IMG/VR virus record: IMGVR_UViG_3300036651_002509
Span: 1 to 23,215 of that record
DNA from: a virus
DNA length: 23,215 nt
Direction: 5' to 3' (one strand)
Below are positions 2,329 through 21,884 of the stretch, one piece after another (the first letter of the stretch is position 1; each line of letters starts with the position of its first letter). The notes beneath the pieces were generated by a model. It was not told the DNA's origin. It searched no databases and saw only the letters and a list, made by a program, of their open reading frames with translations. The position numbers were made by a program, and so were the translations under genes.

Positions 2329-2708
2329 GGAATCTCTTTTTGCTCCCGGACCGTCCCGGGCACCCCCCACCCCGGGGGGCCACCGATGCGCGTGGGATTG
2401 TCCAACTGTGGGTTTGATTCGCGGGACAAATTTCCGGTACTTTTTCCTGAGAGGCTGGTAGGGAAGCCAAAGGCATACAGCATGTTTTTGCGTAGGTACA
2501 ACAAGTCCCGGCGAGATTTTTGGGACTACTGCGATTGGCGTACCCTGAAGTTTACCTCAGCCTGGGGTTGGCCTTTAACGTGGCCTGCCGATCGGAGTGC
2601 CGCGATTACTTCACCGGACCACAGATAAGGATTCCCGGAAGGTCCGCGACTTTATTAAGCGCCGTTGGACAAAAGCCGGCGCGCTTCGAATTCCCGTGGT
2701 TACAAGCG
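2329..2708. other. Non-coding gap between converging operons, several hairpins
   Basis: No frame in this 380-base gap has convincing protein character. Two adjacent GC hairpins follow the stop at 2328: CCCGG 2345-2349 with CCGGG 2356-2360, and six C at 2363-2368 with six G at 2374-2379. They could terminate the + operon, though no T-run follows. Further stems are TTGTCC 2398-2403 with GGACAA 2424-2429, AGTCCC 2504-2509 with GGGACT 2522-2527, and AAGCGC 2657-2662 with GCGCTT 2681-2686. They are local and do not nest into a clear architecture. The gap may hold terminators only, or a second structured RNA. Confidence 0.4.
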
Positions 2709-2972
2709 TTATGTAAGGACGGTACACGCATCCCGGCTATCAGGCGGGGATGGGGCTGGCGCGTTCACCGCAGCGCGAGCGGTTTTGGGTCGGTTCTTCG
2801 ACCAGAAATCGTTGGATGCCTGAGCGGCGAGCCAGGCAGCGCGGTCGGGCGAGGTTGGGCGCCGGGACATGTGGACACCCGCCGGGGTGCCTGCAAATTG
2901 CGGTACCGGCGTATCGTAGCGCGCCCGGGCCTTGATGGCCTTGCGGTATTTCCTATGCCATTTGGGGCTCAC
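2709..2972 (-). CDS. Small basic protein, unknown function
   Basis: An 87-residue protein. A TTG at 2996 would make it longer, but GTG at 2972 gives a GTGA overlap with the upstream stop (2969-2971), the pattern used throughout this cluster. The N-terminus is strongly basic (SPKWHRKYRKAIKARARYD), followed by DRAAWLAAQASNDFW and a Pro/Ala-rich tail. The composition suggests nucleic-acid contact, but no family is recognised. It is the last gene of the 3695-to-2709 unit. Confidence 0.5.
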   Translation of the reverse strand: MSPKWHRKYRKAIKARARYDTPVPQFAGTPAGVHMSRRPTSPDRAAWLAAQASNDFWSKNRPKTARAAVNAPAPSPPDSRDACTVLT

Positions 2973-3196: not shown

Positions 3197-3462
3197 GCGG
3201 ATCGTGGATTGCATGACGGGCAGCGTGGATACTCGCGCTGTGGAACATCGGCGCCCTTGCTGTAGAAGTCTATTGCCTTACGCACCGAAGCGTGCGCTGC
3301 GTTGTATGCAACATGTTCAAGGAACGCTACTTGTCCATCGGTTAACTCCTTGCATTTGAGCTCAATTTCGAGCTGAAAATCGAGTTCTGGATGTGGAACA
3401 ATGGCGGGTTTTCGAGCCGCTTTTCGTTCGGCCAAAAGGTTGATCATGGCCTGGTCGATCAT
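3193..3462 (-). CDS. Small protein with C-terminal CxxC, unknown function
   Basis: An 89-residue protein whose ATG overlaps the stop of the gene before it (ATGA). It is helical and charged (MIDQAMINLLAERKAARK), with a middle segment ELKCKELTDGQVAFLEHVAYNAAHASVRKAIDFY. A terminal CPSC near residues 82-85 could hold a metal with other residues. No known family was recognised. Composition and coupling support a real gene. Confidence 0.65.
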   Translation of the reverse strand: MIDQAMINLLAERKAARKPAIVPHPELDFQLEIELKCKELTDGQVAFLEHVAYNAAHASVRKAIDFYSKGADVPQREYPRCPSCNPRSA

Positions 3463-3695
3463 GTGCCAGGCGCCGGCGGGTTTACGGTGTCGATTTCGGG
3501 TGCGGGTGCCAATTCCACCTTGGCCAATTGGTAAGCCGCAAAGTATTGAGCCAGAAGGGTTGGCAGCGCCGCCTGGATCTCCTCGACCGATTTGAACACC
3601 GACAGTACGGGCTCATTTACCACCGAGTGCCCGGAATGTTGAGCAAATCCCACTATCCAGCCGTTGCTGGCCTGTTCAATGGTTATATTTATCAT
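3459..3695 (-). CDS. Small protein, first gene of the 3695-2709 cluster
   Basis: A 78-residue protein. The frame stays open upstream to 4511, but ATG 3695 is the likely start. A GGGGA motif lies about 8 bases before it on the minus strand, and protein-like composition begins here. The sequence MINITIEQASNGWIVGFAQ...VFKSVEEIQAALPTLLAQYFAAYQL has a beta strand-turn-strand start followed by an amphipathic helix. This resembles small phage proteins of unknown function (strand-turn "GWIV" then F.S..E.L..L..). The upstream part of the frame lies in the folded region described next. Confidence 0.65.
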   Translation of the reverse strand: MINITIEQASNGWIVGFAQHSGHSVVNEPVLSVFKSVEEIQAALPTLLAQYFAAYQLAKVELAPAPEIDTVNPPAPGT

Positions 3696-3703
3696 AAAGT
3701 AAT

Positions 3704-4508
3704 CCCCGGCAATAGGTTGAGTGCGAACTCTGGGGTATAGAAACGACTTTTGGATTCCTGTTGGCAACTCGACAATGATCGGTTCCGGGGAAAGTAATGG
3801 GGCTTGGCACTTGGCGGTTAGCTTCATCGGGTCCATATCCGGTTTTAACGCTTCGGCCAAAACCGACCGGCAAACGCCCCTTCTTGTGAAGGATCTGGGA
3901 TTCCTTGCTAGCATATAACCCATCTCGCTCCCGATGATATTCGCCGTTGCTGCCAAGCCCCGCGTGTTTTGGGAAATTGGACCCGGCACCGGGGCATGGT
4001 ACCGGGATGGCGCGGGAGAGAAGAAACCCCAAGACCGCGCCAAAAGAGACACCCGACAAAGCCGAGTCACTACGCTATCGGCAAGCCTTGCAGGGTGTGC
4101 CTTGTCGCTGGCCCGGTTAGGGTGCAAGCAGTCGCCTATGAGCCGGCTATCCAGCTTCCCGTCACGCGCACCGGGCCTTACGACGCGACAAGCCGCCGTT
4201 TGTTTGCGCTGGAAAATGTTCCCGGCAGTATCCCTATCGGCGCGGCCCTCAACAGGGGCTCTAGGCTTTTGCATCAGTGGCTTATAAACCTCGCAACCCA
4301 GTCCTTTGGGTGAGCCTGCTCCAACACTACAGCCGGGAACTGTGCGGCATCGGCTCGCGGTCTTGGGAATTACGAAAAGAGCCCCATCACTGTTACGAGC
4401 AGCGATGGGATTGCCAGCAGAGGGGCGACCTCGACTGGCGGTTGTATTTCGGCAGGGAGCCGAAAGGGATTCGGATGATTCCCTGCCACCGCTCTCGTAA
4501 AGCGCTTT
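3704..4508 (+). ncRNA. Large structured non-coding RNA (about 800 nt), class not assigned
   Basis: The gap between minus-strand genes holds complementary segments that nest without conflict. Arm 1: GGGGCTTGGCA 3799-3809 pairs with 3951-3961 (11 bp). Inside it come 3813-3817/3941-3945, then 3824-3831/3930-3937 (8 bp). That encloses hairpins 3840-3865 (cUUCGg tip), 3879-3892 and 3896-3922. Arm 2: 4101-4107/4186-4192 and 4110-4116/4171-4177, beside 4049-4054/4093-4098 enclosing 4061-4065/4078-4082. Then contiguous helices: 4239-4245/4035-4041, hairpin 4246-4257, 4258-4262/4378-4382, 4263-4267/4313-4317, hairpins 4296-4311, 4383-4409, 4413-4439 and 4451-4487. The 7-nt loop 4393-4399 pairs with 4494-4500. 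UUCG and GNRA tips (GCGA 3723-3726) and G-U pairs favour the + strand. Size and phage setting recall GOLLD or ROOL. Boundaries are approximate. Confidence 0.7.
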
Positions 4509-4521
4509 CATGTTTCAGCTT

Positions 4522-4761
4522 TTACACCCGCACCCCGGGGGTGTGGCAAGAATTATTTTTGGATTTTTTTTCATCCATTTGCATCGTCCAGTCGCAGAAC
4601 GATTTACTGGGAGTTGTACCGCGGCCGATTATTCCGGTCTTCGGAAAGCAGTCAGGGCACTTGCAGCAGCATATTCCGGTGCAGGCAAAGGCGATGACCT
4701 CGGTTGAGAAACAGAGCGCACACTTGCACGTCGAACAAATATAGGGTGTGGGATCGTTCAT
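4522..4761 (-). CDS. Small Cys-rich protein, unknown function
   Basis: A 79-residue protein overlapping the methyltransferase stop by 4 bases (ATGA). It has ten cysteines in its first 40 residues, arranged as CSTCKCALC and then CTGICCCKCPDC, which suggests one or two zinc-binding knuckles. The C-terminus is polar and lysine-rich, and its Lys codons account for the T-runs near 4553-4570 on the + strand. No family is recognised. Coupling to a DNA methyltransferase suggests shared expression. Confidence 0.6.
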   Translation of the reverse strand: MNDPTPYICSTCKCALCFSTEVIAFACTGICCCKCPDCFPKTGIIGRGTTPSKSFCDWTMQMDEKKSKNNSCHTPGVRV

Positions 4762-6008
4762 GCTAGGGCGAGGCCGGGAGTGACGTCGGTTCTGCGCTCA
4801 ATCAGCTTGGCGTACTCGCCCGACAGGTCGATCCCGATGCAATGGCGGCCGTGTTCCAGGGCCACTTGGGCCGTGGTGCCGCTACCCAGGAACGGGTCAA
4901 GGACGGTGCAGGGCACGGTTTTGGTTTCGCCGCATTGGCAGGTGGGTTGCCAGCCCATGGTTTTTGCCCCTTGATACGTGTCCCAAACGGCTTGCCCGTG
5001 ACTTCCTTGGTCATTGCCTCGTGCGGCGTCGTCAGCATGGTCGTGCCATGATTTGCCCGTGGTCCCGCCTGTTGGTTCTGACAAAATCCGCTCCCACGGC
5101 GCACCGCACTTTGGGCAGCAACCGCGCGCCGAGGTTCCGGCCAGGATACAGGGCAGCACGAGCGCCTTGGGAAACGTGGCGAAGTGTGCGCCCTTAAACG
5201 GCTCGGTGGCGATGGTCCAGACTGAGCGTTTGTTACGGCTGGAAACGAGACCGCTGCAGGCTTCCTCGAAACCCTTATTGTTTTTGATGCCGCTGCCAAC
5301 TTCCGCCGCCTTGCGCTTTCCATAAGCCAAAAGACCAGCCTTGGTGCGTTGTCGGTGGTCGCCATCAGCGTATGCTTGTGCACCTTTTGACGGGTTCACA
5401 TTGCCCGGTAAGCGAGCGTGCGCACCGCCGTTCACCGGCTCCTTCACCGCCTCAGCGTCGTAGAAGTAGTGCGGGCTTTTGGTGATCAGGAACAGGTATT
5501 CGTGCGATTTGGTTGGCCGGTCGGTCACGCTCTCAGGCATGGGATTGGGCTTGTTCCAAATAATGTCCGAGCGCAGATACCAGCCATCGGCGCGGAGTGC
5601 GAATGCGACGGCCCATGGGATTCCAACCAAGTCCTTTGATTTAAGCGTGCCCCACTCTTTGCGCTCTCGGATGTAAGCACCGGACTCCTTACAGGCTTGG
5701 TTTTTGCCACCGGATGAACCACCCCACTTGCCAACCGATGCGAATGAATCACCGAGATTGATCCAGCAAACGCCATCGTCCCTGAGCACCCGGCGCACTT
5801 CACGGAAGATTAAAACCTCGTGCTCGATGAAAAGCTGCGGTGTGGGCTCAAGACCGTGGCAACCCGTCCAGCCGGTGGGCCATGTCACCGGTGGGAGCTT
5901 GTAGTCGCGCAAACCCCAGTACGGCGGCGAGGTCACGCAGCACTGGACCGACTCATCTGGCAGCCCGGCGAGCATGTCCAGAACGTGGCCTTGGAGGAAG
6001 CGGAACAT
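4758..6008 (-). CDS. Beta-class DNA methyltransferase (N4-cytosine or N6-adenine)
   Basis: A 416-residue SAM-dependent DNA amino-methyltransferase. Catalytic motif IV, TSPPYWGLRDY, is at residues 26-36, and the SAM-binding motif I, DPFLGSGTT, is at about 371-379 near the C-terminus. This order defines the beta class. IIWNKPNPMPESVTDRPTKSHEYLFLITKS (positions ~150-180) is the usual central region. A Cys-rich insert (CCPKCGAPWERI, later CQCG) is typical of phage members. S-P-P-Y leans toward m4C, but the base is not decided by sequence. No restriction endonuclease is nearby, so it is an orphan enzyme that probably masks phage DNA from host restriction. The start (TAATG) touches the stop of the coiled-coil gene. 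Confidence 0.93.
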   Translation of the reverse strand: MFRFLQGHVLDMLAGLPDESVQCCVTSPPYWGLRDYKLPPVTWPTGWTGCHGLEPTPQLFIEHEVLIFREVRRVLRDDGVCWINLGDSFASVGKWGGSSGGKNQACKESGAYIRERKEWGTLKSKDLVGIPWAVAFALRADGWYLRSDIIWNKPNPMPESVTDRPTKSHEYLFLITKSPHYFYDAEAVKEPVNGGAHARLPGNVNPSKGAQAYADGDHRQRTKAGLLAYGKRKAAEVGSGIKNNKGFEEACSGLVSSRNKRSVWTIATEPFKGAHFATFPKALVLPCILAGTSARGCCPKCGAPWERILSEPTGGTTGKSWHDHADDAARGNDQGSHGQAVWDTYQGAKTMGWQPTCQCGETKTVPCTVLDPFLGSGTTAQVALEHGRHCIGIDLSGEYAKLIERRTDVTPGLALA

Positions 6009-7654: not shown

Positions 7655-9445
7655 GTGGCGAGCAAAACAGTTTACGGATTGCCGTGGTCTGAGGGTGAAG
7701 ACCTGCTCGCAATCGAACTGGCCATGATCGCTGCGGGCGGGTTTATCGAGCGCTACGGCCGGAAGCACGGGCAAGGGGTTTTCCATCACCAGCGGGCCGC
7801 TCAATCACTTTGCTGGCCTAACGACGATCACCATCGCTGGTCAGACCTCTCTCTCAGAACCATTTGCGAGGAACGTATAACCGTCCTGCAGGGGACCAAG
7901 GATTCGTCAAAAACCCGCACAATTTCCAAGTGGGGACTCATCGACTACTGGGCCAGCCCGAGCGACACGCTGACCTTGGTTTCCTCGACCGGTATCCGCG
8001 AACTCAAGCTGCGCATTTGGGGCGACATTACTAGCCTGTTCAAAGAGGCCAAAGACCGCTACCCGTGGCTGGCCGGGCGCATGTCCAACACGATGACCGG
8101 CATTTTCACCGATTTGCTCGAAGACACCGGCGACGTTCGCGATATCCGCCGCGGGATGATAGCTGTGCCGTGCGTGGGTGGTGAAGGCGAGTGGATAGGC
8201 ATGGACCGCTACGTTGGGATCAAGCAGAGGCGCCGCCGCATCCTGGGCGACGAGCTCCAGTTTATGGCGCCGATGTATGTGAACGTGCTCGACGCCATGG
8301 ACAAAGGCGATTTCAAAGGCGTTTTCGCTGGCAATCCCATCGGCGGTAACGGTAAAGCTCTCGACAAAATAGCTGAACCTTTGGCCGGCTGGTCGAGCCT
8401 GGGCGAGATCACCAAGACCACCACCTGGCGCAACAAGTACGACGGGGTAACCGTCCAGCTTGTCGGCAGCGACAGCCCCAACTTCGATAAGGACCGGCCC
8501 AAGTATTACCCCTACCTCACCGATGAAGCCGATTTAAAGAAAATCGAGCAGCGCAACGGGAAAGACTCGGCGCAGTATTGGACCCTGGGGCTGGGTGTGC
8601 GCAAGATTGGCGCCGATGCCTACCGGGTGCTCACGGTCGAGATGTGCGAGCGCTGCGGGGCGTTCAAAGACGTCATCTGGCGCGGTGGCGAGCGCACCCG
8701 GGTTTACGCGATTGACGCGGGTTTCGGTGGTGACCCGTGCGAAGTGATGGATTTGGAGTTTGGCGAGGACGTTGAAGGGCGGCAGGTCATTCGCTTCAAC
8801 GAGACCCGCTCAATTCCCATCGAGGTAAGCTCGCGCATTACGGCCGAGGACCAAATTGCCTACTTTGTGAAAGCCGACGCCGAGCGGCTCAAGGTGCCAC
8901 CGCAAAACATCTTCTTCGACGCTGGTATGCGGGCCACCCTGGCAATCAGCATGGCGCGAGTTTGCGGCAACGCGGTAAACGCGGTGAACTTTGGCGGCCC
9001 GGCGACTGATCGGCCGGTGGACGATGGCAGCTTTATCGACGACCCCAAGACCGGTGAGCGCCGGCTGATGAAGTGCAACGAGCTCTACAGCAAATTTGTT
9101 ACGGAAATGTGGTACTCGATCCGGAAGGCGGTCGAGTGCAAACAGGCGCGGAATTTTCCAAAGAGCGCCGCCGAGGAATTCTCGCAACGCGAATGGCGTT
9201 GGGTGCCCGGGCCATTGGGCGAGCGCTACGAGCTGGAAACCAAGCCAGAGTACAAGTTGCGTAACAGCGGCCACAGCCCGAATAAGGCTGACGTGCTCAG
9301 CATCGGTGGCGAGGGCGCGCGCCGGTTGGGCTTTGTGATTCAATCGGTGAAGGAAGGCGCGGCGGTCGAGGAAGATAATTGGCTGGAACGCGAGCAGGAG
9401 AAATGGCGCAAGGTGGTCAAAAAGAGCGAGTTGAAATATGGCTGA
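7655..9445 (+). CDS. Phage terminase large subunit
   Basis: A 596-residue packaging motor and nuclease. HHQRAAQ (44-50) sits ahead of the Walker A GTKDSSKT (80-87), and Walker B is RRILGDE (194-200) with the catalytic Glu. GNPIGG (226-231) is the coupling motif III. The RNase H-like nuclease follows, with D354 in YAIDAGFGGD, D422 in IFFDAGMR and D546 in NKADVLSIG as metal-binding acids. Length is normal to long for the family. The start is uncertain: GTG 7655 gives protein-like sequence but lacks a clear Shine-Dalgarno site. It moves DNA into the prohead through the portal encoded at 19060-21417, an unusually distant 10 kb downstream. Confidence 0.93.
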   Translation: MASKTVYGLPWSEGEDLLAIELAMIAAGGFIERYGRKHGQGVFHHQRAAQSLCWPNDDHHRWSDLSLRTICEERITVLQGTKDSSKTRTISKWGLIDYWASPSDTLTLVSSTGIRELKLRIWGDITSLFKEAKDRYPWLAGRMSNTMTGIFTDLLEDTGDVRDIRRGMIAVPCVGGEGEWIGMDRYVGIKQRRRRILGDELQFMAPMYVNVLDAMDKGDFKGVFAGNPIGGNGKALDKIAEPLAGWSSLGEITKTTTWRNKYDGVTVQLVGSDSPNFDKDRPKYYPYLTDEADLKKIEQRNGKDSAQYWTLGLGVRKIGADAYRVLTVEMCERCGAFKDVIWRGGERTRVYAIDAGFGGDPCEVMDLEFGEDVEGRQVIRFNETRSIPIEVSSRITAEDQIAYFVKADAERLKVPPQNIFFDAGMRATLAISMARVCGNAVNAVNFGGPATDRPVDDGSFIDDPKTGERRLMKCNELYSKFVTEMWYSIRKAVECKQARNFPKSAAEEFSQREWRWVPGPLGERYELETKPEYKLRNSGHSPNKADVLSIGGEGARRLGFVIQSVKEGAAVEEDNWLEREQEKWRKVVKKSELKYG

Positions 9446-9659: not shown

Positions 9660-10344
9660 AACCGTCGCCGTTCCATGCACCGGTTGCACCGCTTTGGTGG
9701 AAGTCGAAGCGGGAAGTGAGGTTGCCAGACTGGCTCAGGAAGTGGGCATTTACTGCGACACCTGCATGGCCGCTCAGTCCGAGATTGCCCGCGAGGAACT
9801 ATTGCCCAAACCGCTGCCGTTCAGCACCTATTGCCCACCGTGCTTCGAGGACACCGCTTTCGAGAATCTCCCATGCCCGGCCAAATCCAAACAGGCACTG
9901 GAATGGTGCTTTGGCCATTCGGGCTTGAACCTGTGGGGTTACCCTGGCACCGGCAAAACCCGCACGATGAGCCTCGTTATTAAAGGGATGCTGGAAGGTG
10001 GCCTGTCAGTGGTGGCGTTTGGCCCCGGCGATTTTCGACAGAACTGCGAGTTGAAGGAGTGGAAGCGCGGCCCCTGGCTCAAGAAGCTCTCAAGCGTGGA
10101 CGTGCTCTTCATCGATGACCTCGACAAAATGAACCTCACCCGCGAGATGGAGAAAGACTTTTTCGCCGTCTTGAGCAACCGCATGGGGCGCAAACCCGTG
10201 CTGATGACCGGCAACAGCACCGGCGAGGAGATCACTTACACCTTCAAGCTCGGGTACGCCATGGTGCGCCGCATCCGCGACCACTGCCTTTCGATTCACT
10301 TTGGACAAAACGACATTAACCCGCTACCAAATGGCCATGAGTGA
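9652..10344 (+). CDS. IstB/DnaC-like AAA+ ATPase, probable helicase loader
   Basis: A 230-residue protein. An N-terminal zinc-finger-like pair (C9, C12 and C35, C38) precedes the ATPase core. Walker A GYPGTGKT is at 96-103, Walker B LFIDDLD at 152-158, a sensor-1-like MTGNST at 185-190, and arginines in YAMVRRIRDHC (202-212) fit the arginine-finger region. This is the DnaC/IstB arrangement. Such proteins load the replicative helicase onto DNA or aid strand exchange. No helicase gene is visible in the window, so the partner lies outside it or belongs to the host. The HNH gene overlaps its 3' end. Confidence 0.85.
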   Translation: MAETVAVPCTGCTALVEVEAGSEVARLAQEVGIYCDTCMAAQSEIAREELLPKPLPFSTYCPPCFEDTAFENLPCPAKSKQALEWCFGHSGLNLWGYPGTGKTRTMSLVIKGMLEGGLSVVAFGPGDFRQNCELKEWKRGPWLKKLSSVDVLFIDDLDKMNLTREMEKDFFAVLSNRMGRKPVLMTGNSTGEEITYTFKLGYAMVRRIRDHCLSIHFGQNDINPLPNGHE

Positions 10345-10864
10345 AATGAGAAAAATAGGCAGGCCCAAAGGGTCGAGAAACCACAAAGACCTGACGCCGG
10401 AAGAAATTAAACGGCAATTTTGGAGCCACGTTAAGGTCGGCCTACCACACGAATGCTGGCCATGGACCGGATATGTCGAGCGAGAGACCGGCTATGGAAA
10501 ATTCACTTGGAACACCAGACCGAGTTCCGCCCATCGCTTTGCGTGGATAGCCACCTTTGGAGAAATACCGTTTGGTTTGCTCGTGTGCCACAAGTGCGAC
10601 AACCGAGTTTGCCAGAATCCTTCCCATTTGTGGCTGGGCACCATTGCAGACAATAATCGCGATATGAGAGAAAAGGGACGCGGGGCAAAGCCGCCGAGGA
10701 ACGACAAGATCACTCGCGAAGAGGTGAAGTTGGTTCGCAAACTTTGGGTTCCTTACAAAGTTAGCGTGCGAAAAATATCAACCATGCTCAAACTTCCCTA
10801 TAAAAGCGTGGAAACCGCAGTAAGCAAAACTCACTGGAAAGAAATACCATGGACACCATCATAA
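10331..10864 (+). CDS. Free-standing HNH endonuclease (HNH_3 type)
   Basis: A 177-residue protein from ATG 10331; ATG 10337 is equally possible. ECWPWTGYVERETGYGKF (41-58), SSAHRFAWIATFGEIP (65-80) and VCHKCDNRVCQNPSHLWLGTIADNNRDM (85-112) are the complete HNH_3 core. The first H is in AHR, with metal ligands in CHKCD...C and the NxxH of NPSHL. A C-terminal helix-turn-helix-like part (REEVKLVRKLW...VRKISTMLKLPYKSVETAV) may bind DNA. It overlaps neighbours at both ends and has more A-rich codons than the flanking genes, fitting a recent insertion of a homing-type nuclease. Confidence 0.9.
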   Translation: MAMSEMRKIGRPKGSRNHKDLTPEEIKRQFWSHVKVGLPHECWPWTGYVERETGYGKFTWNTRPSSAHRFAWIATFGEIPFGLLVCHKCDNRVCQNPSHLWLGTIADNNRDMREKGRGAKPPRNDKITREEVKLVRKLWVPYKVSVRKISTMLKLPYKSVETAVSKTHWKEIPWTPS

Positions 10865-11523: not shown

Positions 11524-12755
11524 ATTACGGCACGGTATGCAGCGGGATTGGTGCGCCGGAATGCGCCTGGTCTGACCTCGGCTGGAAGTGCCAGTTCGCC
11601 GCAGAGATAGACGTTTTCCCTTCCGCCGTTCATGCTCACCGTTTCCCTGGAGTACCAAACTATGGCGACATTACGAAATTCAAAGAATGGCCAGAGCAAT
11701 CAATCGACATTCTCGTTGGAGGCACACCATGCCAGAGCTTTTCCGTCGCCGGACTCCGAAAGGGACTGGCTGATCCGCGTGGCAACCTTATGCTCACCTT
11801 CCTGGCCATCACTGGCCGCTATGCTCCCACCTGGGTCGTTTGGGAAAATGTGCCTGGCGTGCTGTCCATCGACGGAGGGCGGGCTTTTGGAGCCTTCCTC
11901 GGAGGGCTGGCAGAACTCGGGTATGGGTTCGCCTACCGAGTTTTGGACGCTCAATTCTTCGGAGTGGCCCAAAGACGCCGCCGTGTGTTCGTTGTCGGAT
12001 GTGCTGGAGGACAATGGCAGCGTGCCGCAGCGGTATTATTTGAGCGCGAAAGCCTGTGCGGGAATCCTGCGCCGCGCCGAGAAACGCGGGAAAGACTTGC
12101 CCCAACAATTAGCGCACGCACTAAAGGCGGTGGCGGACTTGGGACAGACGCGGACTTAGACGGGGCGCTGATCACCCACAGCCTACGCGCCGATGGCTTC
12201 GACGCGAGCGAGGACAGCACCGCGCGGGGCACGCCGGTGGTTGCCGCATTTGGCGGCGATAACTGTTCGGGGCCAATAGAAATTGCTACTGCGTGCAGGG
12301 CGCACGGCTCATTTCATGGAGACTTTGAAACAGAAACAATGCTCGCGTTCAGTTCCAAAGACCACGGCGCGGATGCGGGACACACCGCACCAACACTGCG
12401 AGCCGCGCCACACGACAAATCGCACGCCAATTCGGGAGCGCCACCGGCGATTGCGTTTAAGCCAAACCAGGGCGCTAAGAGCCGAACCTTGGGAGCTTCC
12501 GAGCACGTTGCGCCAACACTCGAAAGCGCGATGGGAGGGAACAATAAGCCAGCCGTGCAACAGGGCTACGCTGTGCGCCGATTGACTCCAACCGAGTGCG
12601 AAAGACTCCAGGGCTTTCCAGATGGCTGGACGGCGATCCAATACCGAGGCAAACCCGCCGCCGATGGACCGCGCTACAAGGCACTGGGCAATTCGATGGC
12701 GGTACCGGTGCTAAAGTGGATCGGGCAGAGGATTGAGATGGTGCATAAGCTGTGA
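11520..12755 (+). CDS. DNA (cytosine-5)-methyltransferase
   Basis: A 411-residue enzyme. ATG 11520 forms an ATGA overlap and begins directly at motif I (GTVCSGIG). Motif IV GGTPCQSF carries the catalytic Cys (C71). Motif VI is WENVPG (108-113), motif VIII QRRRRVFVVG (151-160), motif IX LTPTECERLQGFPDGW and motif X YKALGNSMAVPV. Motifs VIII and IX are ~190 residues apart; this target-recognition zone carries variants of the repeat APTL, as in other phage Dcm-like enzymes. It methylates C5 of cytosine at an unknown site. No partner endonuclease is present, so it is likely an orphan anti-restriction or epigenetic enzyme. Confidence 0.95.
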   Translation: MNYGTVCSGIGAPECAWSDLGWKCQFAAEIDVFPSAVHAHRFPGVPNYGDITKFKEWPEQSIDILVGGTPCQSFSVAGLRKGLADPRGNLMLTFLAITGRYAPTWVVWENVPGVLSIDGGRAFGAFLGGLAELGYGFAYRVLDAQFFGVAQRRRRVFVVGCAGGQWQRAAAVLFERESLCGNPAPRRETRERLAPTISARTKGGGGLGTDADLDGALITHSLRADGFDASEDSTARGTPVVAAFGGDNCSGPIEIATACRAHGSFHGDFETETMLAFSSKDHGADAGHTAPTLRAAPHDKSHANSGAPPAIAFKPNQGAKSRTLGASEHVAPTLESAMGGNNKPAVQQGYAVRRLTPTECERLQGFPDGWTAIQYRGKPAADGPRYKALGNSMAVPVLKWIGQRIEMVHKL

Positions 12756-13465
12756 AGGTCCTCCTTACTTACATTTCTGTGACCGGCGGCCTCGTTACGC
12801 AACAATTTGCCAGCCGATTCGCCGCGACCTACCTGCAATTTCCGCCGGGTTACCCTCACAAGCTGCTCGTGGTTTGCAATGGCGGGCCGCCCGCAACCGA
12901 GCTTGGCCTGCTATTTCGACCGTTCGAAGCCGCGTTCTACCCGCGGCCAAACGACCCCGGCTGGGACGTGAGCGCCTTCGTGGACGTCGCCCGCAACATG
13001 GCCACCGATTACGATCTGATGATCTGCTGCGGCGAGTCGTGCTATTTCCATCGCCCTGACTGGCTCGCGCGCCTGGTCGAAGTGGTCGAGCGCTATCCCC
13101 GCGGCATGTATGGCTTCTTTTCCAGCCACGTCGTACGGCCGCACCTGAACACCACCGGGTTTGCCGTGTGGCCAAAGTGGCTCACCGATTACCCGCGCCA
13201 GGTGCGCTCACGCGACGAGCGCTACCACTTCGAGCACGGCGAATTCAGTTTCTGGCGCCATGTTCACGCCAAGGCGGGTCCGGTTAAGCTGGTGACCTGG
13301 GACGGCGACTGGAACCCGGGCCAATGGCGCTTGCCGCAGAACATCTTGTGGCGCGGCGACCAGTCAAATTGCCTGATTTGGTGCCGCCATAACGACATTT
13401 ACCGAGACGCAGAGAAAGCGCGGCAGCTTAATTGGTCAGCGTCGATTGATCGGGTGGCGGTATGA
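12752..13465 (+). CDS. Glycosyltransferase-like protein, paralogue 1
   Basis: A 237-residue protein that starts with GTG in a GTGA overlap with the methyltransferase stop. It opens with a Rossmann-like strand (KVLLTYISV). GWDVSAF (70-76) corresponds to the G(W/R)D(I/V)GAF signature shared with rhamnan-synthesis RgpF-like proteins. ESCYFHRPDWL (95-105), HFEHGEFSFW (159-168), TWDGDW (182-187) and LWRGDQSNCLIWCRH (199-213) recur in two downstream genes. This family is treated as GT-A-type sugar transferases, though the donor and acceptor are unknown. No signal peptide or membrane segment is visible, so it acts in the cytoplasm. Confidence 0.7.
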   Translation: MKVLLTYISVTGGLVTQQFASRFAATYLQFPPGYPHKLLVVCNGGPPATELGLLFRPFEAAFYPRPNDPGWDVSAFVDVARNMATDYDLMICCGESCYFHRPDWLARLVEVVERYPRGMYGFFSSHVVRPHLNTTGFAVWPKWLTDYPRQVRSRDERYHFEHGEFSFWRHVHAKAGPVKLVTWDGDWNPGQWRLPQNILWRGDQSNCLIWCRHNDIYRDAEKARQLNWSASIDRVAV

Positions 13466-13650
13466 AGGACGATACCCGATATAAATGTCCGAAGTGCGGG
13501 ATGGCTCTAAAATTTGAGCAGTTGCCGGACTTTAGTTGCGTCTGTCGGTGCCCCACATCCTATTGCAAAGGGGTTTCCGATCCTGGATTTGGTAAAGACG
13601 CCGCTACTGCCCACGCCGATTGGCTCAGGCGAAACGGATTTGTGCAATGA
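13462..13650 (+). CDS. Small zinc-ribbon protein
   Basis: A 62-residue protein in an ATGA overlap after paralogue 1. It has a clear zinc-ribbon arrangement: YKCPKCGMALKFEQL near residues 8-22, then CVCRCPTSYC near 26-35, followed by a short helix (AATAHADWLRRNGF). Its role in the glycan cassette is unclear. It may simply be one of the small accessory genes that separate the larger ones. Confidence 0.65.
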   Translation: MKDDTRYKCPKCGMALKFEQLPDFSCVCRCPTSYCKGVSDPGFGKDAATAHADWLRRNGFVQ

Positions 13651-13850
13651 AGGTCATCACGATTACATGTCCTGAACCGATGAGCGACTACAAGCGACGG
13701 GTGGCTCGCTGGCTGGCTTGGGATGGTTACCAAAAGCGCCGGCATGAAGTCCAAGGCCCGATGTTCAATGACGAAAATAAGGTTGAAGCAACGCAAGAAT
13801 TTAACGATTTGCTTCTCAAAAATCTCAGAGACTATCCCGAATGCGCTTAG
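13647..13850 (+). CDS. Small protein, unknown function
   Basis: A 67-residue protein. ATG 13647 overlaps the previous stop by 4 bases, so the earlier in-frame start at 13620 is rejected. MKVITITCPEPMSDYKRRVARWLAWDGYQKRR combines a beta strand and a basic amphipathic helix, and the remainder is polar. It overlaps the next glycosyltransferase start by 10 bases. The family is not recognised. Confidence 0.6.
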   Translation: MKVITITCPEPMSDYKRRVARWLAWDGYQKRRHEVQGPMFNDENKVEATQEFNDLLLKNLRDYPECA

Positions 13851-14521
13851 CAATAGTTTACGTCTTTCCCAACACCGCCGAAGCGCAGCGCACCGAGCAG
13901 GCTGCGCGCTTCGTTACCAGCTACGGCGCTAACCCGCCGGGCATGGACCATGAATCTATCGTAGTGCTCAACGGCAGTAGCGGCGGCGGGAGCGGGTTTG
14001 CCCAGGCGCTCTTTGCCGCTTTGCCAAATCTGCGCATTCTCCAGCACGATAACAGCGGGTGGGACATTGGCGGGTTTCAAAAGGCCGCACGCGAAGTGCC
14101 GTGTGATTTGATGGTGTTCTTTGGCGCTACGGCGTGGTTCCCGAAAGAAGGCTGGCTCAATCGGGTGGTCGAGGCGTCGAGATTGCGCGGGTTGGGCCTC
14201 TTTGGTGCTCATGGCAACCAGGGCGATAAGAATGTCAGCGTATGGCCACACGTCAGGACTACGGGCTTCTGGTGCAACCCGGCGCTAATGAATCGTTACC
14301 CGATCCGGGTTACTGAGCCTGGCCAACGGTACCCATTCGAGCACGGCCCGCAGTGCTTCGCCAACTGGATTAAAGGCGAAGGTATGAAGGTGTGGGTTGT
14401 AGGATTCGATGGCGAGTACGAGGTCGATGTGTGCGACGCGATGCCAAACGGGTTCCACCGGGGCGACCAAAGCAACCTGCTATTTCGAGACCGGCTTAGC
14501 GATCCTCCCTACTACGCATGA
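13841..14521 (+). CDS. Glycosyltransferase-like protein, paralogue 2
   Basis: A 226-residue relative of the gene at 12752. It has the same scaffold: strand MRLAIVYVFP, GWDIGGF at 73-79, ATAWFPKEGWLNRVVE (96-111), RTTGFWCNP (139-147), FEHG at 166-169 and HRGDQSNLLFRDR at 206-218. The aromatic-F-x(2)-EGWL and RGDQSN blocks are almost identical across the three paralogues, which implies duplication within a lineage. The reaction is inferred as sugar transfer, but donor and acceptor are unknown. It overlaps genes on both sides by 4-10 bases. Confidence 0.72.
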   Translation: MRLAIVYVFPNTAEAQRTEQAARFVTSYGANPPGMDHESIVVLNGSSGGGSGFAQALFAALPNLRILQHDNSGWDIGGFQKAAREVPCDLMVFFGATAWFPKEGWLNRVVEASRLRGLGLFGAHGNQGDKNVSVWPHVRTTGFWCNPALMNRYPIRVTEPGQRYPFEHGPQCFANWIKGEGMKVWVVGFDGEYEVDVCDAMPNGFHRGDQSNLLFRDRLSDPPYYA

Positions 14522-15198
14522 GACCTATTGCTATCTTCTTCCACTGCCTCTTTTATATGGCCGATGAATTTCGGCCTCGTGCTTTGGAGATCGTTACCCA
14601 CCAAATGAACCTGCTCAAGTCCTCGGGCTTGGCCGATGCCGCGAGCGAGATAGTGATCGGGATTAACGGTGGCGATGAGAGCCGGAACGTGGCCAGCATC
14701 GTTTGCCCGGCCAAGGCGCGTTTTGTCATGCACGGCTTAGCCTCGCACGCTGAGAACCTCACCATAGTTGAGCTCGAACGCTGGGCGCCGACGCACCCTG
14801 ACTGGTACGTGCTCTACTTTCACGCTAAGGGTTGCACCCATCGGCCCGGAGAGTCCTACGGCGACAATGTATCTGGTCCTTGGCGCGAGGGCATGACAGC
14901 AGACCTAGTGGAAGGCTGGCGACAATGCGTTGTGGACCTCGACGCGGGTTTCGATATCGCCTGTTCGCACTGGATGTGGAATATGGCCGATGGCACACAG
15001 CACATTCCGGCGGGTAATTTTCTTTGGGTAAAATCCAACTTCGTTGCTAGGCTGCCGAGCATCTACCTGCGTGAGCGTATCAAAATGTCAGGCATATCGG
15101 CGGCCGAGAGCCGCTTCGAAGCCGAGGTTTATTGGGGCAACGGGCCGAGGCCGGCGGTTAAAGAGTATCGACCCAGTGGCGGCGGGGGTGTTCCGTGA
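14518..15198 (+). CDS. RgpF-like glycosyltransferase family protein
   Basis: A 226-residue protein distinct from the three paralogues. IAIFFHCLF opens the sequence, followed by EIVTHQMNLLKSSGLADAASEIVIGING, typical of sugar-transferase folds that track surface glycans. The block YVLYFHAKGCTHRPGESY (residues ~99-116) corresponds to the yyHsKG signature of this family, and NFLWVKSNFVARLPSIY (about 162-178) to its wWaks-yl-L block. It is likely to act on sugar acceptors together with its neighbours. It lies in a tight operon with 4-base overlaps. Confidence 0.75.
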   Translation: MRPIAIFFHCLFYMADEFRPRALEIVTHQMNLLKSSGLADAASEIVIGINGGDESRNVASIVCPAKARFVMHGLASHAENLTIVELERWAPTHPDWYVLYFHAKGCTHRPGESYGDNVSGPWREGMTADLVEGWRQCVVDLDAGFDIACSHWMWNMADGTQHIPAGNFLWVKSNFVARLPSIYLRERIKMSGISAAESRFEAEVYWGNGPRPAVKEYRPSGGGGVP

Positions 15199-15911
15199 AA
15201 GTGGCGCTTGTCTATCCCTACATCGTTCCGAGAGCCGATGAGTACCGACAGGACGTTAGGCGATTTTGCAATACTCTGATGAATTTTAGCGCGGGCACCG
15301 ATTTCGACATTTTTATCCAAACCTGCAACGGCAGAGAATTTGTCGGTGATGACGGCGAATGGTTGGGAGAGCTTTACTGGATGGGCGGTGAGTACTTTGG
15401 TGATGGATTCGACATTGGAGCCCACCAACACGCGGCAAACTCAATCCCACCCGAGTATGACTTCGCCGTGTTTTGTTCAACTCAAGTTCACTTCCACCGC
15501 GAAGGCTGGCTCAAACGCATGGTCGAGGCGCGCGAACAGTTTGGCCCAGGTCTCTACGGCGCTATGGCCAGCCGCGAGAACCATCCGCACCTGCGCACCT
15601 GCTTCTTTGGCTGCGACCCAGCCGACTTTCGGGCGTATCCGTGGGTAATCAACAGCAAGGCGCTGTCGCTGGAATTTGAGAGCGGCAAGACCGGCTTCTG
15701 GACGTGGATACGGGCCAATGGCCGAAAAGAGGTACTCGTCGCCTGGGACGGGTTTTACGATGAGCGCAAAGACTGGCGCAAACCGGACAATATTTTTAGG
15801 CGCGGCGATCAATCCAACTGCCTCGTGTGGGACCGGCACACCGAGCTTTACGCCAAGGCTACACCCGAGGAAAAGGCGATGCTTGAGCAGCTCGCGGATG
15901 GGATGGCATGA
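15195..15911 (+). CDS. Glycosyltransferase-like protein, paralogue 3
   Basis: A 238-residue protein that starts at GTG 15195 (GTGA overlap). Shared blocks are GFDIGAH (71-77), HFHREGWLKRMVE (99-111), RTCFFGCDP (134-142), FESGKTGFWTW (161-171), AWDGFYDE (183-190) and FRRGDQSNCLVWDRH (201-215). It is closest to paralogue 1 in its tail, including the extra helix after DRH. The repeated WDG and RGDQSN elements probably form the conserved core of a GT-A-like fold. Experimental activity is not known for close relatives. Confidence 0.72.
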   Translation: MKVALVYPYIVPRADEYRQDVRRFCNTLMNFSAGTDFDIFIQTCNGREFVGDDGEWLGELYWMGGEYFGDGFDIGAHQHAANSIPPEYDFAVFCSTQVHFHREGWLKRMVEAREQFGPGLYGAMASRENHPHLRTCFFGCDPADFRAYPWVINSKALSLEFESGKTGFWTWIRANGRKEVLVAWDGFYDERKDWRKPDNIFRRGDQSNCLVWDRHTELYAKATPEEKAMLEQLADGMA

Positions 15912-16471
15912 ACAGTTACAGTGGCTATGGCGAGGACAAGTGGATTTACGAGAATATCAATCCACCAACGGGTGTGTTCTGCGAAGTCGGCGCTTACGAC
16001 GGCATTAGCTCGTCGAACACGCTGGCTTTTGAACAAATCGGCTGGACCGGAATGCTGGTAGAGCCTGACCCGGCGAGTGCCGCCAAGTGCATTATTAGTC
16101 GCAAAGGGCCTGTTTGGTGCTGTGCCGCCGGTCGTGCGGGATTTCGACCATTCTTTCTCAACGAGGCTGACCGGGGAAGATCGAGTTTTGCGCAGTATGA
16201 CGGCAAGGTTATCCCGGTCATCGTATGCCCATTGATCGAGCTTCTATTTCACGCCGGTTTAACGTCGCTAGACCTGCTTAGCATCGACACCGAGGGCACC
16301 GAATTGGAGGTTTGGGAAACTCTTGGTACCCATCGGCCAAAGATCGTGATTATGGAATTCCTGACCTGGGGTAGCCCGCCTCGTGACAAAGAGATCGTTG
16401 AGCGCATGGTCGCCGATGGTTACCGCGAAGCCCACCGCACCGAAGCCAACCTGATTTTTGTAAGGCGATGA
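15908..16471 (+). CDS. FkbM-family SAM-dependent methyltransferase
   Basis: A 187-residue protein. FCEVGAYDG at 24-32 is motif I, binding SAM. VEPDP at 51-55 is the acidic loop for ribose, and LLSIDTEGTELEVWETL (123-139) is the FkbM hallmark (IDxEG-xE). The family is named for FkbM, which O-methylates a hydroxyl in macrolide (FK506/FK520) synthesis. Phage and bacterial members methylate sugars on glycans. The position among glycosyltransferases supports methylation of a glycan made by this cassette. Confidence 0.9.
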   Translation: MNSYSGYGEDKWIYENINPPTGVFCEVGAYDGISSSNTLAFEQIGWTGMLVEPDPASAAKCIISRKGPVWCCAAGRAGFRPFFLNEADRGRSSFAQYDGKVIPVIVCPLIELLFHAGLTSLDLLSIDTEGTELEVWETLGTHRPKIVIMEFLTWGSPPRDKEIVERMVADGYREAHRTEANLIFVRR

Positions 16472-17100
16472 AAACCCTGGATCAAATTGGCATCGAACAG
16501 CAAACCGACAAGGCGAGCCAGTTCAGCCGCACCTACGCTAAGCCACACGATTATCTGCGGCACATGGAGTTATTCTTTGCACCGCTGCGCGAAACGCCGA
16601 TCAAGCTGGTTGAGATCGGTGTCGGTGGCGGGGAGTCGGTGCGAACGTGGTTGCAGTATTTTAAATGGGCGTGGGTGCTGGGCATAGACAATGTTCACGA
16701 TACCAACCAATGGAACACCCCTAAGAAGTGGTCAGCGTCATCTGACAGCCGCGAGGTGGACGGGTACGACCGCTACGCCTTTATGGCGGCCGACCAAAAC
16801 GACCCTGTGTTTTGGGCCTGTTTTGCTGCCGACCTTGGCAAGACCGTGGATATCGCGATTGACGATGGCTCTCACGAGCCGCAAGGAATTATCACGAGTT
16901 TTAACGGCCTCTGGCCCCTGGTGAAGCCGGGCGGTTATTATTGCATCGAGGACCTTGGGTGCGGCTTTTCGAGCCCGTGTTTCCCAAGTCATTACGAGTG
17001 GCTCAATTCGCTGGTTAACGAAATAAACCGGGGCACCTTTGGTATCGATTCGATGTACTTCAGTAAAGAGTTGTGCGTGCTCAGAAAAGCGGGCATCTAA
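16468..17100 (+). CDS. MycE-like class I SAM methyltransferase
   Basis: A 210-residue protein. TDKASQFSRTYAKPHDYLRHMEL (13-35) is the usual TDK...H-x-Y entry region, LVEIGVGGGES (47-57) is motif I, and VDIAIDDGSHEPQ (127-139) and VKPGGYYCIEDLG (152-164) complete the pattern. In characterised relatives (sugar O-methyltransferases such as MycE) the D-x-G-S-H segment helps bind metal. It probably methylates a sugar hydroxyl. The gene has a 4-base overlap with FkbM and a 6-base gap to the C-methyltransferase. Confidence 0.82.
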   Translation: MKTLDQIGIEQQTDKASQFSRTYAKPHDYLRHMELFFAPLRETPIKLVEIGVGGGESVRTWLQYFKWAWVLGIDNVHDTNQWNTPKKWSASSDSREVDGYDRYAFMAADQNDPVFWACFAADLGKTVDIAIDDGSHEPQGIITSFNGLWPLVKPGGYYCIEDLGCGFSSPCFPSHYEWLNSLVNEINRGTFGIDSMYFSKELCVLRKAGI

Positions 17101-17106
17101 CCCACT

Positions 17107-18405
17107 ATGTATCGCGAACACACACGCTGCAGGGCCTGCGGCTTTGGCCAGCAACCCAACCCAGGCGGTATCAAATCCGCGCCATCAAACGAGAGGCTGT
17201 TGCCCGTCTTCGATTTGGGCACGCAACCCCTCGCCAATGACTTCGCCAGGGACACCGACGAGCGCGCCGGGTTCGCGCCGCTCAAGGTGTTGCTCTGCCC
17301 GCGGTGCTCGCTCGCGCAGCTTTCGGTTGTGGTACGGCCTGAGATCCTTTACCGCCACTACCTCTACGTCACCAGCCCGAGCGATACGATGCGGGCGCAC
17401 TTCGACACGATTGCCCAAGGCATGGCCGCCGAGGCTGGCAGCAAACGGCTGCTCGAAATCGGCAGTAACGACGGCGCCTTCCTCGACTACCTCGCAGTTC
17501 GCGGCTGGCAGGTGATGGGAGTTGACCCGGCTGAAAACCTGTGCGCCAAAGCCAAAGAGAAGGCCCTGGACGTGGTTTGCGAGTACTGGGGCGCTCAAGC
17601 CGGCTCCAACCTGGCCGGGTTCAAACCGGGCATCGTGCTCGCTCGACACGTTTTCTGCCACGTTGATGACTGGCGCGATTTCATTCGCGGCCTCGAATTG
17701 GTTGCGACCGACGACACCCTGGTTTGCATCGAAGTGCCATACGCGGCCGACCTGCTCAGCAAAGGCGAATTCGACACCATCTACCACGAGCACACCAGTT
17801 ACCTCACGGTCAAGGCCATGTCGGCGCTCCTGGCCGAGAGCCGCTTCCGGTTGCACAAGGTTATTCACATGCCCATTCACGGCGGGGCCCTCTTTCTGAT
17901 GTTGCGCACCAAAGGCCACGAGGCCCACCCGCACAAGAGCGTGAGTGAGTTTATGAACCGCGAGGAGTGCGGAGAGGAGGCGTGGAAGACTTTTAATTAC
18001 GAAGCAACGGTCAAAATCCGCAGTGTCATAAACCTTGTTTGTAATCTTCGAGATCAGGGCAAACGAGTTGTTGGTTACGGCGCTTCGGCCAAATCAACGG
18101 TGTGGATCAATGCGTGCAGGTTCACCCGAAACCAAATCGAGGCGGTTTACGATTGCACCACCGAGAAGCTCTACCGGTGCATCCCAGGCACCGATATTCC
18201 CATCGCGCACGAGGGCGGTTTCTATGTCGATGGACCCGATTACGCCATCTGCTTCGCTTGGAATTTCCGCGAGGAAATACTCGCCAAGCAGGCCAAATGG
18301 CTAAAGAGCGGTGGCAAATTCATCTTCCCGCACCCGTCAATCGAGGTCGTAGGAGCCAACGGACCTATAGCGTTTGAACTTGCTACCGCACCAGCAGGGG
18401 TGTAA
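17107..18405 (+). CDS. Three-domain sugar C-methyltransferase (TylC3/NovU type)
   Basis: A 432-residue protein with the full three-domain layout. The N-terminal zinc domain uses C8, C11, C64 and C67, with the family's DLGTQPLANDF (36-46) between. The SAM domain starts with LLEIGSNDG (115-123). IYHEHTSYL (225-233) carries the Glu-His pair thought to act in catalysis in the TcaB9/NovU group. The C-terminal Methyltransf_14-type Rossmann domain contains VVGYGASAKSTVW and ends in FPHPSIEV. These enzymes C-methylate a 3- or 5-carbon position of an NDP-4-keto sugar, so an NDP-keto sugar is likely supplied by the host, since no sugar epimerase or dehydratase gene is nearby. Confidence 0.92.
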   Translation: MYREHTRCRACGFGQQPNPGGIKSAPSNERLLPVFDLGTQPLANDFARDTDERAGFAPLKVLLCPRCSLAQLSVVVRPEILYRHYLYVTSPSDTMRAHFDTIAQGMAAEAGSKRLLEIGSNDGAFLDYLAVRGWQVMGVDPAENLCAKAKEKALDVVCEYWGAQAGSNLAGFKPGIVLARHVFCHVDDWRDFIRGLELVATDDTLVCIEVPYAADLLSKGEFDTIYHEHTSYLTVKAMSALLAESRFRLHKVIHMPIHGGALFLMLRTKGHEAHPHKSVSEFMNREECGEEAWKTFNYEATVKIRSVINLVCNLRDQGKRVVGYGASAKSTVWINACRFTRNQIEAVYDCTTEKLYRCIPGTDIPIAHEGGFYVDGPDYAICFAWNFREEILAKQAKWLKSGGKFIFPHPSIEVVGANGPIAFELATAPAGV

Positions 18406-18418
18406 AGCGGGTAACGCG

Positions 18419-19063
18419 ATGAACGCAACACAGCCAAAAGACCGCCGAGAATACTTTCGGTTGTGGCATTTGAGAAATCGAGAACGGAGGCTCGCCGCGC
18501 ACAAATTGAGGTATCGAGCGAAATGGGCTGAAATCCAAAGGCAGAACAAGACATACCACGAAGCGCATCCCGAGGTCGCAGAAAGGGCGAGGAAAAAATA
18601 TTGGGCAGCAAATCAAGAGAAGTGCCGAGAGGCTAATCGCAAGTGGCGAGAAGAGAATCTAGAAGAGCAGCGATCAAGAGAACGGCTGGTTCGTAAAAAG
18701 GCATTTGCTAAAGATCCCGAAAAAATTCGCGCAGCTAATCGTGCATGGGCGGCTCGCAATAAGGACAAAATCCGGCTGCGCGATTTGCGCCGAAAGGCGT
18801 TGAAAAAAGGCGCGAGGGTAAATCTCGCCCACATGCAAGAGTGGATGGATTCGGTGAAGTCAAAACGCACAGCGACTTGCTATTGGTGCGACAAAACCAT
18901 TCTCAGTAAAGACCTTCATTTCGATCACATCGTTCCACTCTCCAAAGGCGGGGAGCACTCCGTTGAAAATCTTTGCGTTTCTTGCGAGGCGTGTAATTGC
19001 GCAAAGCAGGCAAAGTTGGTTACCGCCTGGGTGAGAGTCGGTCAGCAAACCCTAACATTATGA
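18419..19063 (+). CDS. Free-standing HNH endonuclease, long basic helical N-terminus
   Basis: A 214-residue protein. Residues 1-140 form a long Arg/Lys/Glu-rich helical region with repeats of the W-x-A/E-N(Q/R)-E/D-K type. The zinc-stabilised HNH core follows: CYWCDKT (154-160), LHFDHIVPLSKGGEHSVENLCVSCEACNCAKQ (167-198), with D169-H170, N184 and the CxxC pairs. It is separated by 13 bases from the C-methyltransferase and overlaps the portal start by 4 bases. Its codon use is richer in A than its neighbours. It looks like an inserted homing-type nuclease, possibly targeting the intron-free portal locus of related phages. Confidence 0.88.
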   Translation: MNATQPKDRREYFRLWHLRNRERRLAAHKLRYRAKWAEIQRQNKTYHEAHPEVAERARKKYWAANQEKCREANRKWREENLEEQRSRERLVRKKAFAKDPEKIRAANRAWAARNKDKIRLRDLRRKALKKGARVNLAHMQEWMDSVKSKRTATCYWCDKTILSKDLHFDHIVPLSKGGEHSVENLCVSCEACNCAKQAKLVTAWVRVGQQTLTL

Positions 19064-21455: not shown

Positions 21456-21884
21456 GTGCGTCAGTGTAAAAAGTGCAGACAGCTCAAGCCGATTTCAGAG
21501 TTCTACGTCAAAAGCACGAGAAATAGGGTGTGGAGCTGCCACGCGTGCAAAGAATGCGTTAAAGCTTATGAACGAAAACGCCACCAAACTTGGTACAGGG
21601 ACAAGCACCGACAGATTCAAAAAAAATACCATCGAAAGCTCAAATTGGAACTGGTTCAGGCGTACGGCGGTAAATGCAAATGCTGTGGCGAAAATCGGTT
21701 CGAATTTTTGCAAATTGATCACATCAATGGCGGTGGCCTAAAGCACCGTCGCACTCTGACAATCCATATGTCGGCGCACCTTAAAAAGCTGGGTTACCCA
21801 AAACAAGGATACCGATTGTTGTGCGCCAACTGCAACTCGTCGCTCGGGTTATATGGATACTGCCCCCATGAAAATCATCATTGA
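21456..21884 (+). CDS. Free-standing HNH endonuclease (double zinc type)
   Basis: A 142-residue protein starting with GTG 21456. CKKC (4-7) and CHAC (28-31) build an N-terminal zinc finger. The nuclease core is KCKCCGENRFEFLQIDHINGG (73-93) with D88-H89, followed by H97, YRLLCANCNSSLGLYGYCPH (119-138). This is the widespread phage HNH type with C-C-N-G-x-C-P-H closure. It differs from the other two HNH genes in the window, so three lineages inserted separately. It lies just after the portal and overlaps the next gene by 17 bases. Confidence 0.92.
   Translation: MRQCKKCRQLKPISEFYVKSTRNRVWSCHACKECVKAYERKRHQTWYRDKHRQIQKKYHRKLKLELVQAYGGKCKCCGENRFEFLQIDHINGGGLKHRRTLTIHMSAHLKKLGYPKQGYRLLCANCNSSLGLYGYCPHENHH

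Follow-up and report, generated by a model that had tools for sequence, protein, structure and literature searches.

A strongly folding, mostly non-coding region between two minus-strand phage genes as a candidate large structured RNA

The locus and its domains

The window, by which we mean the whole 23,215-base virus record analysed here, is identified as phage by its terminase-like gene (7655-9445); relatives of the phage also carry a second large gene homologous to 18997-21417, which is portal-like by its position. The same phage is present in two further IMG/VR contigs, identical to the window at 100% over 14.8 kb and at 99.99% over 22.2 kb, and the three known copies of the gap considered here, those of the window and of the two sister contigs, do not differ in sequence. 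The IMG/VR contigs were assembled separately and contain the gap in the same form, so it is not an assembly artefact. Elsewhere in the window, inspection of the translations by eye finds three plus-strand ORFs with HNH-like Cys/His motifs (10301-10864, 18374-19063 and 21456-21884) and, at 12752-18405 on the plus strand, a long series of glycosyltransferase- or methyltransferase-looking genes that possibly forms a glycan-modifying cluster of the phage.

The genes flanking the gap, from 7600 to 2969, lie on the minus strand. On one side is the gene for a Cys-rich protein of 79 aa (4522-4761, minus strand), whose ORF overlaps the stop of the methyltransferase gene by 4 nt and whose product has no match in Pfam or PHROGs; on the other is a second gene of 79 aa (3459-3698, minus strand), with an ATG at 3698 and a positive coding score, whose start may reach to about 3837. 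The outer limits of the gap are 3699-4521, and on the strictest reading it extends over 3834-4521.

The complementary segments within the gap are arranged in successive domains. D1 (3703-3791, read on the plus strand) is an imperfect long hairpin with a 7-bp closure, TCCCCGG/CCGGGGA (z against shuffled sequence -2.78 on the plus strand and -0.88 on the minus strand); alternatively, it may be coding sequence at the 5' end of the minus-strand gene 3459-3698. D2 (3799-3961, on either strand) is closed by an 11-bp stem, 3799-3809/3951-3961, with an 8-bp stem, 3824-3831/3930-3937, nested inside it, and a linker (3962-4027) joins it to D3. The latter (4028-4367, on either strand; z -2.6 on the plus and -1.82 on the minus strand) is multibranched, with inner stems at 4049-4054/4093-4098, 4110-4117/4170-4177 and 4218-4226/4332-4340, and its perfect 12-bp closing stem, 4028-4039/4356-4367, is the longest of the region. 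D4 (4370-4500, 131 nt, on either strand) is a four-way junction closed by TTACGA-AAA-GAGC/GCTCTCGTAA, that is, by TTACGA/TCGTAA and GAGC/GCTC with an AAA bulge between them, and it holds three hairpins (4383-4409, 4410-4442 and 4451-4487), the first two of which abut directly (4409|4410). The word TTACGA can be read twice in D4, in the closing stem at 4370-4375 and again in the loop of the first hairpin, and possibly this loop copy pairs alternatively with the 3' closing strand at 4495-4500.

Much of this pairing had been proposed in an initial annotation of the sequence. The two stems of D2 and the hairpins in 4383-4409 and 4451-4487 lie where it placed them, its stem 4110-4116/4171-4177 is present in the slightly longer form given above, and its suggestion of abutting helices is borne out at 4382|4383, and likewise at 4409|4410, in the four-way-junction model; the 12-bp stem of D3 had escaped it. 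Other pairings fared less well. The words at 4101-4107/4186-4192 are complementary, but the ensemble prefers 4104-4107/4181-4184; the same holds for 4258-4262/4378-4382 and 4263-4267/4313-4317, for which other partners (4379-4382/4491-4494) are preferred. Of the two proposed tips, both can be found, cUUCGg at 3851-3856 and, flanked by GAGU and ACUC, GCGA at 3723-3726, but the GNRA hairpin gives way to a longer pairing in the fold of minimum energy.

Folding beyond chance and the two strands

The 805-nt stretch folds better than shuffled sequence on both strands (z -2.93 on the plus strand and -3.35 on the minus strand), while 27 other 805-nt plus-strand windows of the same genome have a mean z of 0.21 (sd 1.0, range -1.41 to +2.1). 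Among the 1,539 windows of a 135-nt scan that moved along in 15-nt steps, 4366-4500 comes out on top with a z of -6.1, and the best window outside the gap region reaches -3.96. The region contains two perfect Watson-Crick stems that are 11 bp or longer (p 0.0045 in shuffles), and none of 103 overlapping windows elsewhere has more than one. On the plus strand D2 and D4 both fold better than every one of 200 shuffles, with z values (-4.64 on the plus and -3.93 on the minus strand for D2; -6.78 and -6.16 for D4) that are inflated, their bounds having been picked after the fold was viewed, so that the scan value is the fair one.

The two strands fold about equally well, so that the RNA could be read from either; the plus strand, which the initial annotation had chosen, is slightly favoured in our view by D1, by the T-runs downstream and by the wobble pairs that extend two of the D4 hairpins. 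On the plus strand D1 folds better (z -2.8 against -0.9), as does 3834-4521 (-3.8 against -2.9), wobble pairs lengthen the two D4 hairpins, and a TATCAT word at 3690-3695 stands about seven bases before D1, for which no -35 partner was found. Favouring the minus strand are the direction of the operon, the z of 3796-4502 (-4.1 against -3.65 on the plus strand) and the helix 4383-4409, which is unbroken there, with a G-U pair in place of A-C, and is followed by a U-rich tail. Scans for promoters and terminators gave results at chance level and no convincing promoter. A GC hairpin followed, after a gap, by T-runs (4524-4571, plus strand; z -1.72 on that strand) lies within the 3' end of gene 4522-4761 and, judged by its sequence, is a possible plus-strand terminator; the terminator scan did not pick it.

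The minus-strand evidence is what a different account of the gap would build on. By analogy with known elements, the region could belong to the methyltransferase operon as an intercistronic element ahead of gene 3459-3698, where it would control read-through as a structured leader, a terminator or a site of processive antitermination, with no separate RNA gene involved. Processive-antitermination RNAs such as EAR and put are multi-hairpin RNAs of about 100 nt that act inside long operons, and D4 read on the minus strand resembles one of these. It ends there with its terminator-like first hairpin (4382-4410, minus strand), which has 11 pairs and then the U-rich tail, CTCTTTTC. The common direction of the flanking genes and the minus-strand z values of the 805-nt stretch and of 3796-4502 are also consistent with such an element. 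Against this, 700-800 nt is long for an element of this kind and much larger than EAR or put, it is not evident what D2 and D3 would do in termination, Rfam has no matching model, and the terminator-like site falls within chance numbers (8 such sites in the scanned stretch, 6.4 expected). We regard an operon element as unlikely, while taking it as the most serious of the alternatives.

It is also conceivable that the gap is a non-functional spacer, DNA of old or foreign origin in which D4 is a single strong cluster of hairpins and the remaining complementarity is due to chance. Conservation cannot be demonstrated for the region, D1 and 3962-4027 are not outstanding on both strands, and D2 and D3 folded jointly are unremarkable (z -1.3 on the plus strand), all of which would suit a spacer. 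The performance of D2 and D4 against their shuffles and the rarity of the 11- and 12-bp stems argue the other way, as does the economy of compact phage genomes, in whose operons 700 nt of idle sequence are seldom retained, and we consider an idle spacer quite unlikely.

Coding potential

The codon model used to assess coding was trained with 21 of the phage's own genes, nearly all of which score highest in their own frame, with the other five frames spread widely. Over 3699-4511, by comparison, the score lies between -0.14 and -0.18 in all six frames, and 3834-4511 is likewise flat; a flat six-frame score of this kind is the mark of non-coding DNA. The one part that departs from it is 3699-3833, which scores 0.066 in the minus frame and -0.06 to -0.26 in the other five frames, so that gene 3459-3698 may start near 3837 and D1 may be partly coding. 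Given this possible coding, the safest non-coding core is 3834-4521, which has flat six-frame codon scores and folds better than shuffles on both strands. Of the initial annotation's proposal, the part supported is a gap that for the most part lacks coding character and is structured to an unusual degree; an RNA that fills all of it is less well founded, given the weak minus-strand coding signal at 3699-3833.

One frame nonetheless spans the structured region. A 350-codon open frame on the minus strand (3459-4511) begins 10 nt beyond the stop codon of gene 4522-4761 and is in phase with gene 3459-3698, into which it continues, and in 6,000 dinucleotide shuffles of 3699-4511 this frame was never kept open (any frame was open in 0.15%). 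With this openness in view we have kept translation as a rival: the frame could be a real, atypical protein gene, with the structure as a by-product or second constraint. Such a gene would also account for a weak 3-base periodicity in the minus frame (p 0.04) and for the coding-like score over 3699-3833. The first 271 codons, however, are without codon bias, scoring -0.144 in frame and -0.139 to -0.182 in the other five, unlike nearly all genes of the phage, and by this codon-score test of gene membership the 350-codon ORF does not share the codon usage of the phage's genes. Searches of Pfam, PHROGs and PDB found no relatives of the frame, and those of phage records nothing noteworthy (best tblastn E 0.1). 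In a single-sequence structure prediction of the 350-aa product, confidence rises only near residue 271, the start of gene 3459-3698, a weak point that is uninformative alone, a real control protein having also stayed at a pLDDT of 31. Taken with the codon scores, these results make a protein gene very unlikely.

Relatives, known large RNAs and interpretation

Searches for relatives of the gap returned the phage itself. In Rfam there was no match at the gathering score for the whole window, nor at E<=10 for 3400-4800, and blastn against INPHARED and PLSDB up to E 10 gave chance pieces of 24-46 nt only. IMG/VR was searched through the neighbouring genes, the terminase, the RNA as peptide patterns and two linker 16-mers, and among the matches listed there was the same phage only; contigs found with the 16-mers were checked by nhmmer, and those outside the phage also by a covariance model of D4. 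Since exact-pattern scans of this kind would pass over homologues in which no run of some 16 bases is conserved, they do not prove absence. The D4 covariance model found itself only in 91 sources (the window and 90 loci; best other match in locus L047, E 3.7); run over 26 whole viral contigs it picked out the two sister contigs alone, and one MAG gave no match. Across PLSDB, INPHARED, the IMG/VR matches listed and the contigs of related phages, then, there was no diverged homologue, and the known copies, being identical, supply no substitutions from which covariation could be judged. In the related phage L016, whose methyltransferase is 56% identical in its best segment, three ORFs follow that gene and no comparable gap or element is present after it. 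The element is lineage-specific at the depth searched.

Two structured segments in related phages were considered as equivalents and rejected, neither resembling the gap region: L122 19584-20446 (z -6.2), which contains an ORF for an HNH-type endonuclease, and L126 16115-16654, which includes a run of GGCGGAT-type repeats. The ORF in L122 lies at 19820-20430 with a strong hairpin ahead of it, and L126 16115-16280 is a series of short inverted repeats around GGCGGAT/ATCCGCC.

The window itself contains a second structured zone without codon signal, at 2330-2930 (plus strand), where plus- and minus-strand operons meet. It has stems at 2398-2406/2664-2672, 2505-2513/2860-2868 and 2728-2737/2881-2890, its 2392-2930 part folds better on the plus strand (z -2.9 against -1.3 on the minus strand), and it shows no similarity to the gap region. 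Its beginning, 2327-2396, is 73% identical over 70 nt to the distantly related phage L016 at about 11665-11734 (minus strand), with GGAATCTCTTTTT followed by a GC-rich hairpin; the L016 counterpart also lies within a structured gap, preceded there by an element (11745-11862, about 120 nt) that folds strongly. This zone may be the better entry point for homologues.

Among known large RNAs, GOLLD assembles as an RNA-only multimer, a 14-mer cage, and ROOL as an RNA-only octamer with conserved kissing loops. Both form RNA-only cages and are often found near tRNA islands, and many GOLLD members exceed 800 nt (Kretsch et al. 2025, PMC12286853). The candidate resembles GOLLD in being phage- or prophage-borne, in its size, its several helix domains and its unknown function, and ROOL as a putative large phage-borne non-coding RNA with an elaborate fold. 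The initial annotation had offered membership of one of these families or a new class, and membership is not supported: comparison with the Rfam covariance models of GOLLD, ROOL, HEARO and OLE gave no match at E<=10, and no tRNA or tmRNA was found in the window or either sister contig, three contigs of the phage that may be incomplete. Nor could a conserved 3' region as in GOLLD be recognised in the candidate, and the Rfam model recognised none of the published ROOL stems P1-P19 there. OLE and HEARO are likewise large structured bacterial non-coding RNAs; HEARO, in addition, needs an adjacent HNH endonuclease ORF, and none overlaps or adjoins the gap. A self-splicing intron or a palindromic DNA-level element such as an origin or packaging site is extremely improbable, for although the size would suit an ORF-less intron and HNH-like ORFs, typical companions of mobile introns, occur elsewhere in the window, no group I or group II model matches at E<=10, the flanking genes appear complete and not split, and stems 140-330 nt apart fit RNA better than DNA dyads.

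Overall, the region is real, unusual, mostly non-coding and strongly folding, and in being non-coding and folding beyond chance it shows what is generally looked for in a large structured non-coding RNA. We see in it a credible candidate, short of a demonstrated case, for a large phage RNA of a new kind, and the argument rests on one sequence. Our preferred reading, to which we give somewhat less than an even chance, is an orphan, lineage-specific, non-coding and strongly structured phage RNA of about 700-800 nt; it is based on a gap that mostly shows no codon signal and on the excess of foldable structure there. The gap would be transcribed as one RNA of three or four helix-closed domains in series, perhaps D1, then D2, D3 and the four-way-junction D4, whose product would be a tertiary fold and not a peptide, and which would stand alone as an architectural RNA, as GOLLD and ROOL are thought to do; by this analogy it may also work as they do. 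Against an RNA of this kind weigh the lack of a homologue among the matches listed, the missing element in L016, the similar folding of both strands, the one open frame and the lack of a convincing promoter in the scan.

The new class that the initial annotation had named as its second option is possible, and in its fuller form it is a more doubtful proposition than the orphan RNA: a class of giant phage RNA that shares no sequence relationship with GOLLD or ROOL, has a four-way junction as its 3' domain and is so far confined to one lineage, whose genome would hold another large structured RNA at 2330-2930, about 1 kb distant. RNA classes of such size and complexity are few, and both of the phage ones are RNA-only cages of unknown purpose. 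If the candidate is what we tentatively propose, an independent phage RNA of like size would show large architectural RNAs to have had more than one origin, and it would provide a new system in which the function of such RNAs could be studied.
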